Shown here: piece after piece, positions 51,550-55,070 of the stretch
Numbering within the stretch: position 1 is the first letter of the stretch
Layout of the letters: every line of letters starts with the position of its first letter
From: Candidatus Thiodiazotropha sp. LNASS1
Lineage (GTDB): Bacteria; Pseudomonadota; Gammaproteobacteria; Chromatiales; Chromatiaceae
Length of the DNA stretch: 64,000 bases
Assembly: GCF_964212655.1 (NCBI RefSeq)
Contig: NZ_OZ156465.1
Coordinates: 1,798,001-1,862,000, forward strand
Direction of reading: 5' to 3'
The notes under the pieces: generated by a model
What the model was told of the DNA's origin: nothing
Database searches by the model: none
Seen by the model: only the letters and a program-made list of their open reading frames with translations
Translations under genes and position numbers: made by a program

Positions 51550-51987
51550 TCAACATTCCAGCCAAAACGTCACCGGACCATTATTGATGAGGGCCACCTG
51601 CATATCAGCGCCAAAAATACCACAGGCCACCGGTTGGTGCAGTGCTTGCGCGCTCTCAGTCAAATAGGAAAACAGATGTTTTCCCACTTCCGGATCGGCG
51701 GCGCTGGAAAACCCCGGTCGCATACCCTTTTTTGTATCGGCCGCCAGGGTAAACTGAGGAATCAGCAGCAAACCACCCTGAATATCCCTCAGGCTCAAGT
51801 TCATACGGCCGGTCTCATCGTTGAAGACACGGTACCCCAGCAATCGTTCAAGCAGGCGATCGGCTTTGCCGCTATCATCGTTTTTCTGAATCCCTACCAG
51901 CACGGCCAGTCCCCGGTCGATCTCAGCAACCGGTTCACCGTCGATATGCACGCTTGCCTCATTCACCCGCTGCAGCAGCCCGATCAC
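51550..51987 (-). CDS. dtd: D-aminoacyl-tRNA deacylase
   Basis: 145 aa homodimeric enzyme that removes D-amino acids (and glycine from tRNA-Ala) from tRNA. Landmarks are MIGLLQRVNEASVHIDGE, LLIPQFTLAADTKKGMRP and the active-site NGPVTFWLE with the cis Gly-Pro. It overlaps pip by four bases. Confidence 0.97.
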   Translation of the reverse strand: MIGLLQRVNEASVHIDGEPVAEIDRGLAVLVGIQKNDDSGKADRLLERLLGYRVFNDETGRMNLSLRDIQGGLLLIPQFTLAADTKKGMRPGFSSAADPEVGKHLFSYLTESAQALHQPVACGIFGADMQVALINNGPVTFWLEC

Positions 51988-52934
51988 GGCAACTCCTTTG
52001 CAAATCTGTCCGTTGCCTCGATCAAGGCACTGCGGATACCGGGTTCCGCCGCGGAGTGGCCGGCATCCCCGATTACTTTCAGTTCACTGCCCGGCCAGGC
52101 GTGATGGAGTTCCCAAGCGGAGGTCATGGGGCAGATAAGATCATAGCGCCCTTGCACAATGACACCTGGTATATCCGCCAGCCTATCGCTCTCCAGCAAC
52201 AATTGATTGGGGCGCAGGAAGGCATGATTGACAAAATAGTGGCACTCGATGCGGGCCAGACTCAAGGCTGTGTGAGGATCTGAAAAAAAACTGACCACCG
52301 CAGGGTTTGGATGGAGGCTGGCAGTGCGGCCTTCCCATACCGACCACGCCTTGGCAGCCGCCATTCGATCAATATCGTTCTCGCCGCTAAGGCGGCGTTG
52401 ATAGGCGTGTAACAGGTCGTCCCGTTCCTGTTGTGGGATCGGGGCGATGAAATCCTCCCAATAATCCGGAAAGACACGGCTTGCCCCATGCTGATAGAAC
52501 CAACGGATCTCCTCATCACGGCAGAGAAAGATGCCCCTGAGGACCATCCCTGTGACCCGATCCGGGTTGGATTGAGCATAGGCAAGTGCGAGTGTCGATC
52601 CCCAGGAACCGCCGAACAATAACCATTGCTCGATGTTCAGCTGCTGGCGAATTCTTTCGATATCACCCACCAGGTCCCAGGTGGTGTTGGCTTCCAACGA
52701 GGCATGCGGTGTGGAGTGGCCACAGCCACGTTGATCGAAGAGCACGACCCGATAGTGATCGGGATTGAAAAAACGGCGGTGATAGGGTTCACAGCCGGCC
52801 CCCGGGCCACCATGGAGAAACAGCACCGGAATCCCATCCGGCTTGCCAACCTGCTCAACGTAGAGTCGATGGCCGTTATCCACAGGCAGCATTTGCGATG
52901 TGAACGGTTCAATGGCTGGATACAGGTCTTTCAT
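51984..52934 (-). CDS. pip: proline iminopeptidase
   Basis: 316 aa alpha/beta hydrolase of family S33 releasing N-terminal proline. It begins MKDLYPAIEPFTSQMLPVD and has HGGPGAGCEP, DQRGCGHSTPHA, the nucleophile GGSWGSTLALAYAQ, WSVWEGRTASL, and C-terminal Asp/His in VQGRYDLICP and GDAGHSAAEPG. It is first in the pip-dtd-MBL row. A second ATG one codon upstream exists. Confidence 0.95.
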   Translation of the reverse strand: MKDLYPAIEPFTSQMLPVDNGHRLYVEQVGKPDGIPVLFLHGGPGAGCEPYHRRFFNPDHYRVVLFDQRGCGHSTPHASLEANTTWDLVGDIERIRQQLNIEQWLLFGGSWGSTLALAYAQSNPDRVTGMVLRGIFLCRDEEIRWFYQHGASRVFPDYWEDFIAPIPQQERDDLLHAYQRRLSGENDIDRMAAAKAWSVWEGRTASLHPNPAVVSFFSDPHTALSLARIECHYFVNHAFLRPNQLLLESDRLADIPGVIVQGRYDLICPMTSAWELHHAWPGSELKVIGDAGHSAAEPGIRSALIEATDRFAKELP

Positions 52935-52951
52935 CAATATTCATGTCGCCA

Positions 52952-52969
52952 TGTAGGAAAAATCCTACA
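52952..52969. promoter_or_regulatory. GacA/UvrY-type upstream box
   Basis: TGTAGG-AAAAAT-CCTACA is a perfect 18-base dyad that differs from the GacA consensus (TGTAAG-N6-CTTACA) at one position per arm. It lies about 90 bases upstream of the Csr/Rsm-type sRNA start, the expected side for GacA activation. A second weaker dyad TGTG-N8-CACA is at 53000-53015. Confidence 0.65.
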
Positions 52970-53046
52970 TCGATTAGAGAAAAATCTCACAAACAATATG
53001 TGCGGAATCCCACAGTAAAAGTTACATTTTGTGTCATTATTAAGTT

Positions 53047-53170
53047 GTCGTCATCAGGGATGTACACCAAGGACATAGAGCTCAGGAGAGCACAGGGACG
53101 ATTAGCTTAGCCAACCAAGCCGACGACTATAAGCCCAACTGCAAGGAATGCGGTTGGGCTTCTTCTTTTA
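53047..53170 (+). ncRNA. Csr/Rsm-type regulatory sRNA (CsrA/RsmA-binding)
   Basis: A plus-strand RNA gene of about 120 nt between the starts of pip and the end of typA. Five GGA motifs lie at 53058-53060, 53071-53073, 53085-53087, 53096-53098 and 53145-53147, several as CAGGGA, CAAGGA or TCAGGA, the CsrA/RsmA recognition core. GCTC-AGGA-GAGC (53080-53091) is a typical GGA-in-loop hairpin. GTCGTC (53047-53052) can pair with GACGAC (53122-53127), enclosing the 5' domain. A strong terminator ends it. A GacA-type dyad lies upstream. Such RNAs titrate CsrA/RsmA. The transcription start is inferred from CATTAT at 53035-53040. Confidence 0.82.
53131..53169 (+). terminator. terminator of the Csr/Rsm-type sRNA
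   Basis: Stem AAGCCCAAC (53131-53139) and GTTGGGCTT (53153-53161), extended by three inner pairs, with GGA in the loop AAGGAAT, then CTTCTTTT. On the minus strand no T-run follows. Confidence 0.85.
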
Positions 53171-53255
53171 TACATGACTGACATTACCTCAGACCCGCCA
53201 TTCTGCCAAACCCGAAATTAATAAACGTATCCGATCCAGGATCTGTTGCCTTGCC

Positions 53256-55070
53256 CTACAACTCCCGTGATGCACGTTTGCGCTCATGCTCCCTGAGGTG
53301 CTTTTTGCGCAACCTGATGGCACCCGGAGTGACTTCCACCAGTTCGTCATCCTCAATGAACTCCAACGCCTGCTCGAGGCTATATTGCAGCGGGGGCGTC
53401 AGAATGATTGAGTCGTCCTTTCCGGCGGCCCGAATGTTGGTTAATTGCTTGCCTTTCAGAGGATTAACCACCAGATCGTTTTCCCGGGAGTTGATACCCA
53501 CTATCTGCCCCTCATAGACATCATCACCCGGCGAGGCGAAAAGCCTGCCTCGCTCCTGGAGGTTAAATAGGGCATATCCAAGCACCTTACCCTGGCCATT
53601 GGCGATTAAAACGCCGTTTTTCCTCGCGGCTATCCCCCCTTGTTGGGTGGGACCATAGTGATCGAAAACATGGTAGATCAACCCGGTGCCTGAAGTGGTG
53701 GTCATAAATTCGGTCTGAAAACCGATCAATCCCCGGGAGGGTATGATGTAGTCGAGTCGGACTCTTCCTTTGCCATCCGGCACAATATCCTTGAGTTCAC
53801 CCTTGCGCGCGCCCAGTGCCTCCATGATGCTGCCCTGATCCTTCTCCTCCACATCCACGGTCAACTGCTCGTAAGGCTCGCAAACCTCTCCCTCGACTTC
53901 GCGAAAGATGACCTCCGGCCGGGATACGGCCAGTTCATAACCCTCACGGCGCATGTTCTCGATCAAGACCGAAAGATGCAGTTCACCCCGCCCGGAAACC
54001 TTGAACTTCTCCGGGTCTGTCCCTTCCTCGACCCGCAGTGCCACATTGTGAATCAGCTCTCGCTCGAGGCGCTCTTTAAGTTGTCTGGAGGTGAGATATT
54101 TACCTTCCAGTCCGGCAAAGGGCGAGGTATTGACCTGAAAGGTCATTGAGACGGTGGGCTCATCCACGGACAGTGGAGGCATCGCTTCTACATGCTCCGG
54201 ATCGCAGAGGGTGTCGGAGACATTGGGCGCCTCCAGTCCGCTGATGGCAATGATGTCTCCGGCGCTGGCTTGGTCGACCTCGAAGCGCTCCAGACCGAGG
54301 TAACCGTAGACTATCCCTATCTTGCCGCGGTGCTGTTCTCCATCATATTTCACCACGGTGACCTGTTGATTGGGTTTCACCGTACCGCAGGTCACTCTCC
54401 CCACCGCGATCGCCCCGACATAGCTGTTGTAGTCCAGATTGGAGATCTGCATCTGGAAGGGACCGTCCGGATCGACTTCAGGCGCCGGGCAGTGATTGAC
54501 AATCGTTTCGAACAGCGGCCGCATGTCGCCCTGATTCACCTGACTCTCCAGACCTGCGTAACCATTGACCGCCGAGGCGTAGATGATGGGGAAATCGAGC
54601 TGCTCGTCAGTCGCACCGAGACGGTCGAACAACTCAAATACCTGATCGATAACCCAGTCGGGTCTCGCCCCCGGTTTATCGATCTTGTTCACCACCACAA
54701 TGGGTCGCAGGCCGTGCTTGAACGCCTTCTGGGTGACGAACCGGGTCTGTGGCATGGGGCCTTCCTGGGCATCCACCAGCAATAGTACGGAATCGACCAT
54801 TGACAGCACACGCTCCACCTCACCACCAAAATCGGCATGTCCAGGTGTATCGACGATATTGATACGATATTCCTTCCAGCGGATGGCCGTGTTCTTAGAC
54901 AGGATAGTGATACCCCGTTCCCTCTCCTGATCGTTGGAGTCCATGACGCGCTCGACATTGCCAAAACGCTCACCCAGGGTTCCAGACTGTTTCAACAGTT
55001 CATCCACAAGTGTGGTTTTGCCATGATCGACATGCGCGATAATGGCGATATTTCTTAGATTCTCGATCAC
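53256..55070 (-). CDS. typA: ribosome-associated GTPase TypA/BipA
   Basis: 604 aa translational GTPase of the EF-G type, needed for ribosome assembly and stress adaptation. G1 is AHVDHGKTT, then [40 protein letters not shown]; domains III and V and the BipA-specific C-terminal domain follow ([35 protein letters not shown]). The start is GTG. It is transcribed alone from a promoter at 55106-55111. Confidence 0.97.

Follow-up and report, generated by a model that had tools for sequence, protein, structure and literature searches.

Between pip and typA, a Candidatus Thiodiazotropha genome carries a small RNA (sRNA) gene whose product, judging from its anatomy and conservation, very probably sequesters CsrA. 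The RNA also has a conserved segment complementary to the 5′ leader of csrA, so one RNA seems to act on both CsrA and the csrA message. CsrB and RsmZ titrate CsrA through GGA motifs. The reading preferred here, held at a probability of about 0.82, is that of a GacA (UvrY)-activated sponge that would also dock on csrA mRNA via the conserved segment. The complementarity to the csrA leader exists, and true sRNA/leader partners match each other better than permuted ones.

The sRNA locus and its candidate regulatory partners

The window, i.e. the whole 64,000-nt stretch of DNA that was analysed (G000:C1:1798001-1862000), belongs to a genome consisting of one 4.75-Mb contig from Candidatus Thiodiazotropha; Ca. 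T. endolucinida is assigned by NCBI to Chromatiales, Sedimenticolaceae. The sRNA gene is intergenic, with pip on one side and typA on the other. Its features are given below in window coordinates, followed by two loci of the same genome.

51984..52937, − strand: pip, prolyl aminopeptidase, flanking and divergent (TIGR01249, 429 bits)
52952..52969, no strand assigned: GacA/UvrY-like box TGTAGG-AAAAAT-CCTACA, an 18-base dyad beginning 95 nt upstream of the sRNA start
52974..52991, no strand assigned: degenerate second box TTAGAG-AAAAAT-CTCACA, 22 bp downstream of the first and beginning at −73
53047..53169, + strand: sRNA gene, modelled as ~123 nt, with ends inferred from conservation, closing helix and terminator
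53047..53052, + strand: 5′ arm of the closing helix, GTCGTC
53058..53060, + strand: GGA 1
53071..53073, + strand: GGA 2
53080..53091, + strand: GCTC-AGGA-GAGC hairpin, with GGA 3 (53085-53087) in its loop
53096..53098, + strand: GGA 4
53105..53120, + strand: GCTT-AGCCAACC-AAGC hairpin, presenting the csrA-complementary segment
53110..53121, + strand: csrA-complementary segment GCCAACCAAGCC, 12 nt
53122..53127, + strand: 3′ arm of the closing helix, GACGAC
53131..53170, + strand: intrinsic terminator, a 13-pair stem (53131-53161) and a T-rich tail, with GGA 5 (53145-53147) in its loop
53256..55070, − strand: typA/bipA, ribosome-dependent GTPase, flanking and convergent (TIGR01394, 948 bits)
around G000:C1:1209689-1209700, − strand, outside the window: csrA-leader site GGCTTGGTTGGC, from 87 to 76 nt before the csrA start codon
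G000:C1:2035158-2035283 (L349 1501-1626), outside the window: second, diverged sRNA of the same family, found with R2, the broader of two covariance models

The preliminary description had read this region as a Csr/Rsm-type sRNA gene from five GGAs, an AGGA hairpin, a GTCGTC/GACGAC pairing, a strong terminator and an upstream dyad, and on reading the sequence every one of these is found in its place, including the GGA that had been claimed for the terminator loop and the dyad TGTAGG-N6-CCTACA at 52952-52969. Five GGAs within 123 nt, some of them displayed in hairpin loops (the AGGA hairpin and the terminator loop), the upstream box, the intergenic position with a terminator and the presence of csrA and a gacA-like gene in the genome all fit a CsrA-sequestering sRNA of the Csr/Rsm class. 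The folding energy lies 3.07 s.d. below that of dinucleotide shuffles, of which 0 of 200 fold as well. A simple promoter scan revealed no sigma-70-like promoter at the locus.

The genome contains one csrA (90.6 bits). The best match to UvrY/GacA scores 276-277 bits, just below the cut-off of 280, and the next best scores 190; an ORF that reads as UvrC-like follows this GacA/UvrY-like regulator, with one ORF between them.

The upstream box

The upstream dyad agrees with the GacA/UvrY box consensus. The pattern TGTARG-N6-CYTACA occurs at two places in the genome, the other being within an ORF read by eye as HD-GYP, and a reversed control pattern gives an equal number of matches; the box was rejected as stand-alone evidence, its genome-wide frequency being at chance. 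The conservation of locus and box among relatives nevertheless speaks for a real gene. Among 83 sequences upstream of the sRNA and its relatives, the best box has no mismatch in 43, one in 8, two in 14, three in 15, four in 2 and five in 1, whereas 1660 mononucleotide-shuffled upstream sequences never contained a box with 0 or 1 mismatch and had two in 2.5% and three in 15.5% of cases.

The position of the box is also recurrent. In relatives outside the genus the best match mostly begins 72-76 nt upstream of the RNA start, while among the 18 genus sequences listed the box is at −95 in 14 (one reads −99 through its coordinates) and a perfect box is at −74, ~21 bp nearer to the RNA, in the remaining four. 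The −73 place of the degenerate second box in the window is, when positions are compared by reading, that of the box in many relatives outside the genus. The stretch 52952-53014 looks modular, with boxes or half-boxes ~22-24 bp apart (TGTAGG..CCTACA, TTAGAG..CTCACA and TGTGCG..CCCACA).

A sequence family of its own

The preliminary description had likened the RNA to CsrB and RsmZ and proposed Rfam as a check: no CsrB, CsrC, RsmX, RsmY or RsmZ match was found in 51900-54300 with E up to 10, nor in 10 loci holding relatives with E up to 1, which makes the sRNA a sequence family of its own. BLASTN with the locus identified 22 of 56 genomes: each of the 21 genus members (own included), among them G009 with a locus 99% identical, plus one from another genus of the family. 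The covariance model R1, built from genus sequences alone, matches 93 of 210 genomes of the order, in 32 of 61 genera; at least four weak matches look false, those in G079, G123, G130 and G167 being without the seed (the csrA-complementary segment) and probably spurious. In a sample of the class, R1 matches 3 of 369 genomes, two from the own genus and a third (G233) that by reading consists of the terminator only.

R2 was trained on sRNAs that mostly carry the seed, so its matches are partly selected for the seed. It matches 16 of the 369 class-sample genomes at E <= 0.001, three in the own family and 13 elsewhere. Ten of these 13 were read (G233, G404 and G476 were left out); G049, G457 and G552 look true, having box and seed, and the other seven are doubtful.

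In 48 aligned sequences (own included) there are 4-9 GGAs within 109-141 nt. The loss of conserved GGA positions in related genomes had been named beforehand as grounds for abandoning the Csr/Rsm reading; in the alignment these positions are kept, while the surrounding sequence is largely drifting. The closing helix is paired in 98.2% of cells across the 48 sequences and has 12 changes on both sides, all at one of its six pairs, compared with 3.7 in shuffles (0 of 500 as many); by two other measures of its covariation between genera, further pair types and pairs with both-side changes, the observed values were each reached by 498 of 500 shuffles. Across the 48 sequences, both-side changes occur in 9 of the 11 consensus pairs of the terminator; within the genus, the terminator shows them too, as do three of the four pairs of the AGGA hairpin, with 88.6% of cells paired. 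In the genus alignment, 494 of 500 shuffles had at least as many further pair types as observed, and 14 of 500 had at least as many pairs with both-side changes. The recurrence of GGAs, closing helix, AGGA hairpin, terminator and box in relatives, with compensatory changes, lends support to the Csr/Rsm-type reading.

The best-conserved segment of the RNA is not a GGA; it is (U/A)GCCAACCAAGC, located directly before the closing arm and absent from the preliminary description. An exact pattern on this segment gives 58 matches on 54 contigs in 84,980 species genomes, from Thiodiazotropha, Sedimenticola, Solemya, Escarpia and Lamellibrachia symbionts, many unclassified gammaproteobacterial assemblies and two Cycloclasticus, a genus assigned by NCBI to Thiotrichales, i.e. 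another order. The matches on contigs L119 (Coriobacteriaceae) and L125 (Balneolaceae) lie in coding sequence and look like chance.

Complementarity to the csrA leader

All 12 nt of the segment GCCAACCAAGCC are complementary to GGCTTGGTTGGC, which is part of the genome's own csrA 5′ leader. The 4.75-Mb genome has three copies of GCTTGGTTGGCW, one in the csrA leader, one antisense to the sRNA and one antisense to an ORF. From the own genome alone the helix is moderately unusual, with 4 of 2000 leader shuffles scoring as high. Whole-length RNAduplex energies were not significant (50 of 500 and 29 of 500 shuffles as low) and this measure was not used.

The second sRNA of the genome differs from the window sRNA over most of its length. 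It has five GGAs, a GTCGCA/TGCGAC closing helix and a box with one mismatch at −74. Its own perfect 12-nt match to that csrA site, ATTGCCAACCAA, differs from that of the window sRNA and is displaced by three bases. Among ~4000 random 200-nt stretches of the window, a 12-nt match to the two sRNAs was found in 0 and 1 respectively. This second gene adjoins genes that read as folate-type and is present in G009 too (L350).

Across genomes, the best unconstrained helix falls on the seed and the csrA site in 63 of 77 genomes with a csrA leader. It falls elsewhere in eight (G031, G056, G106, G116, G117, G149, G223 and G226), in G223 as a result of a shifted anchor, and the other six are without a usable anchor or leader, four of them being probable false sRNA matches. 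For the pairing analysis, 84 of the 93 R1-positive genomes (without G008, G025, G087, G111, G127, G131, G194, G196 and G225) were combined with the two Cycloclasticus, and anchors were set on each side independently of complementarity. Both anchors were obtained in 73 of these 86 genomes; those left out had no csrA leader available (G005, G010, G012, G017, G065, G083 and G119), a leader cut by a contig end (G029) or no sRNA anchor (G077, G079, G123, G130 and G167, of which G077 pairs by eye). G031 and G149, whose anchors were misplaced, were removed before permutation, and where there were tandem sRNA copies or several csrA matches, one copy and one leader per genome were used.

The resulting 71 genomes (58 distinct rows, 23 genus labels) have sRNA/csrA-leader helices of 8-17 contiguous pairs. 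The mean helix length is 12.4 compared with 11.6 for permuted csrA partners, and the observed mean is reached in 0 of 5000 permutations, in which relatedness is not fully corrected; with one row per genus, the means are 12.38 and 11.41, and again 0 of 5000 permutations reach the observed value. With all rows, the total number of pairs is higher than in any of 5000 permutations; reduced to one row per genus, it is higher than in 4819 and is reached by the other 181 of 5000. Altered seeds are accompanied by matching csrA changes in G070, G094, G077, G223, G084 and G091, and the variant seed/target pairs include AAGCCAACCAAA/TTTGGTTGGCTT, GCCAACCAAGCTC/GAGCTTGGTTGGC, AATACCAACCAGG/TCTGGTTGGTATT and CAGACCAAGCCTGG/CCAGGCTTGGTTTG. 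Complementarity to one mRNA is conserved and tracks changes on both sides.

Predicted pairing in further genomes

In Cycloclasticus, the pairing was predicted and then found, with 15 and 11 pairs, the csrA leaders having been fetched after the sRNAs. The csrA site is 42-49 nt upstream of the start, and the sRNAs are preceded by TGTAAG-N6-CTTACA boxes.

A held-out set consisted of the 33 R1-negative genomes of the order used for this purpose, whose csrA leaders were fetched before their sRNAs were known. R2 has matches in 15 of these 33 R1-negative genomes and none in 18. In seven of the nine strong matches (E < 1e-8) the best helix is at the predicted site; it is equalled by 0 of 100 shuffles in five of the seven, by 2 of 100 in G219 and by 4 of 100 in G168. 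The strong matches include the variant pair CAGACCAAGCCT/AGGCTTGGTCTG. In the other two, G027 and G197, the best helix lies off the expected site and is equalled by 7 and 8 of 100 shuffles, and a 9-nt match can be seen by eye at that site. The weaker held-out R2 matches mostly have no such csrA match.

The csrA leaders L236, L238, L240, L242 and L249 come from genomes of the order lacking a confident sRNA and have CTTGGTCTGG or a similar sequence. Leaders of this type predict a partner sRNA with CCAGACCAAG, for which there is only a weak candidate, in G118.

Proposed mechanism

In the proposed mechanism, GacA (UvrY) would activate transcription of the sRNA, the GGA motifs of which, to judge by its anatomy, would bind CsrA dimers and titrate CsrA. 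GCCAACCAAGCC would pair with GGCTTGGTTGGC in the csrA 5′ leader where the two RNAs, as we infer, meet in the cell. The most likely consequence is that, with the Gac signal on, the sponge would dock on the csrA message and both the activity and the synthesis of CsrA would be controlled jointly.

Across genomes the pairing site is located ~42-118 nt upstream of the csrA start and ~25 nt from the guessed transcription start (median of 68). Given the extent of the ribosome footprint, the site lies mostly outside it, which makes plain obstruction of ribosome binding improbable. When the site was held open in folding, accessibility of the csrA ribosome site went up in 21 and down in 13 of 68 leaders, with no consistent sign, and the ribosome site itself is partly paired (mean unpaired 0.41). 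The csrA leader of the own genome also carries GGAs, and a docked sponge could bring CsrA to these sites or take it from them. In E. coli, csrA is autorepressed via CsrA sites in its leader (PMC7652899).

That pairing represses csrA, through a leader that is blocked or destabilised or through CsrA dimers held beside the csrA-leader GGAs, stands at about even odds. Activation of csrA by freeing of the leader is a weaker though serious candidate, and a role of csrA mRNA in sRNA turnover seems unlikely.

The target is abundant in life, given the high place of csrA in expression tables. A study of Ca. T. endolucinida from three clam hosts lists csrA first in its shared top-100 table, with medians of 78-85 thousand TPM, rbcS being higher in one host (PMC13137333); csrA is also among the 55 shared orthogroups in the top 100 of another survey of lucinid-clam symbionts (PMC12172469).

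Somewhat favoured is a deeply conserved dual inhibitor, in which the Gac-induced sponge would base-pair with the mRNA of its own protein target, so that CsrA is caught at its place of synthesis and its production is set along with its activity. The circuit would be old, its signs being present in Chromatiales and Thiotrichales, at least two orders of the Gammaproteobacteria, and not in E. coli. If true, a sponge with the csrA message as a second target would change the circuit model to one with a double negative or homeostatic feedback. It would offer an RNA arm of Gac/Csr control in clam and tubeworm chemosynthetic symbionts (Thiodiazotropha, Sedimenticola, and the Escarpia and Lamellibrachia symbionts), and the conserved seed can be used to look for Csr sRNAs missed by Rfam.

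Alternative explanations

The RNA could be a plain sponge of the CsrB/RsmZ type, with the GCCAACCAAG segment serving as a structural or processing element only and the csrA complementarity being without function. The invariance of the GCTT/AAGC hairpin pairs in the genus alignment would fit this, as would the moderate own-genome complementarity and the 181 of 5000 permutations that reach the total pairs with one row per genus. This explanation is nonetheless given little credence, since the complementarity recurs in 71 genomes with a mean helix length that none of 5000 permutations of the partners reaches, tracks variant seeds in held-out genomes and is kept in the diverged paralogue, and the GCTT/AAGC hairpin is not kept across all other genera. 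Less probable still is a shared DNA-binding site, recognised by a single regulator in the csrA leader DNA as well as in the sRNA gene: each copy has a promoter-like or box region at most ~170 bp upstream of it, but species-specific flanks match between partners and the sRNA copy sits near the transcript end, before the closing arm and terminator, an unusual place for an operator. The orientation, too, always fits RNA complementarity, although the anchor search demanded that orientation and the count is therefore not independent.

Pairing might instead mainly control the sRNA, with abundant csrA mRNA capturing it or exposing it to RNases, for which the leading place of csrA in the shared table for Ca. 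T. endolucinida in three clam hosts would speak (PMC13137333); this is improbable, if less so than the two explanations above. That there is no RNA gene at all and the GGA-rich intergenic sequence arose by chance is scarcely credible: the chance-level frequency of the box pattern and the outcome of the sigma-70 scan would agree with it, but conservation, compensatory changes and a box recurring across many genera do not.

Comparison with known systems

The E. coli CsrB and CsrC RNAs resemble the window sRNA in having a Gac/UvrY-linked box, many GGAs and a Rho-independent terminator and in being non-coding. They differ in length, being 369 and 246 nt in E. coli K-12 compared with ~123 nt, in the Rfam searches, where the window sRNA and its relatives have no match to them, and in their complementarity to csrA, which over 154 nt of leader is not in excess (298 and 44 of 300 shuffles as high). 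Pseudomonas RsmX, RsmY and RsmZ are similar in size, number of GGAs, a TGTAAG-N6-CTTACA-type box and the presence of more than one copy per genome; the window sRNA differs in having no Rfam match to them, and it carries the csrA-complementary segment.

PMC7652899 presents the CsrA protein as the target of Csr sponge RNAs. No description of a CsrA sponge pairing with csrA mRNA was found in the open-licence literature searched, and so no claim of priority is made. In Pseudoalteromonas fuliginea, PMC11882849 describes the GGA-rich Csr sRNAs Pf1-Pf3, for which imperfect pairing with a few mRNAs is predicted, and a separate antisense sRNA predicted against csrA mRNA; there the csrA antisense is another RNA, whereas in the window family the sponge itself carries the match, and does so in many genera. 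The Pseudomonas aeruginosa sRNA srbA is reported to lower rsmA expression via predicted pairing with the rsmA message; in contrast to the window sRNA, it is not presented as an RsmA sponge in the part of the source available, and its duplex is predicted to hinder ribosome binding directly (PMC12203948).

Additional copies in related genomes

Tandem arrays of four sRNA copies are present in five Thiodiazotropha genomes (e.g. L016 563-1720, L012 565-1720 and L015 1496-2671). In the L016 array, exact boxes precede two of the four copies, and the fourth array copy has a compensated closing helix, GTCATC/GATGAC, together with an altered csrA seed. The tubeworm symbionts (Escarpia and Lamellibrachia; L045, L048, L052, L110, L122 and L140) have up to three or four separate model matches, some of them weak, which show two loop types.
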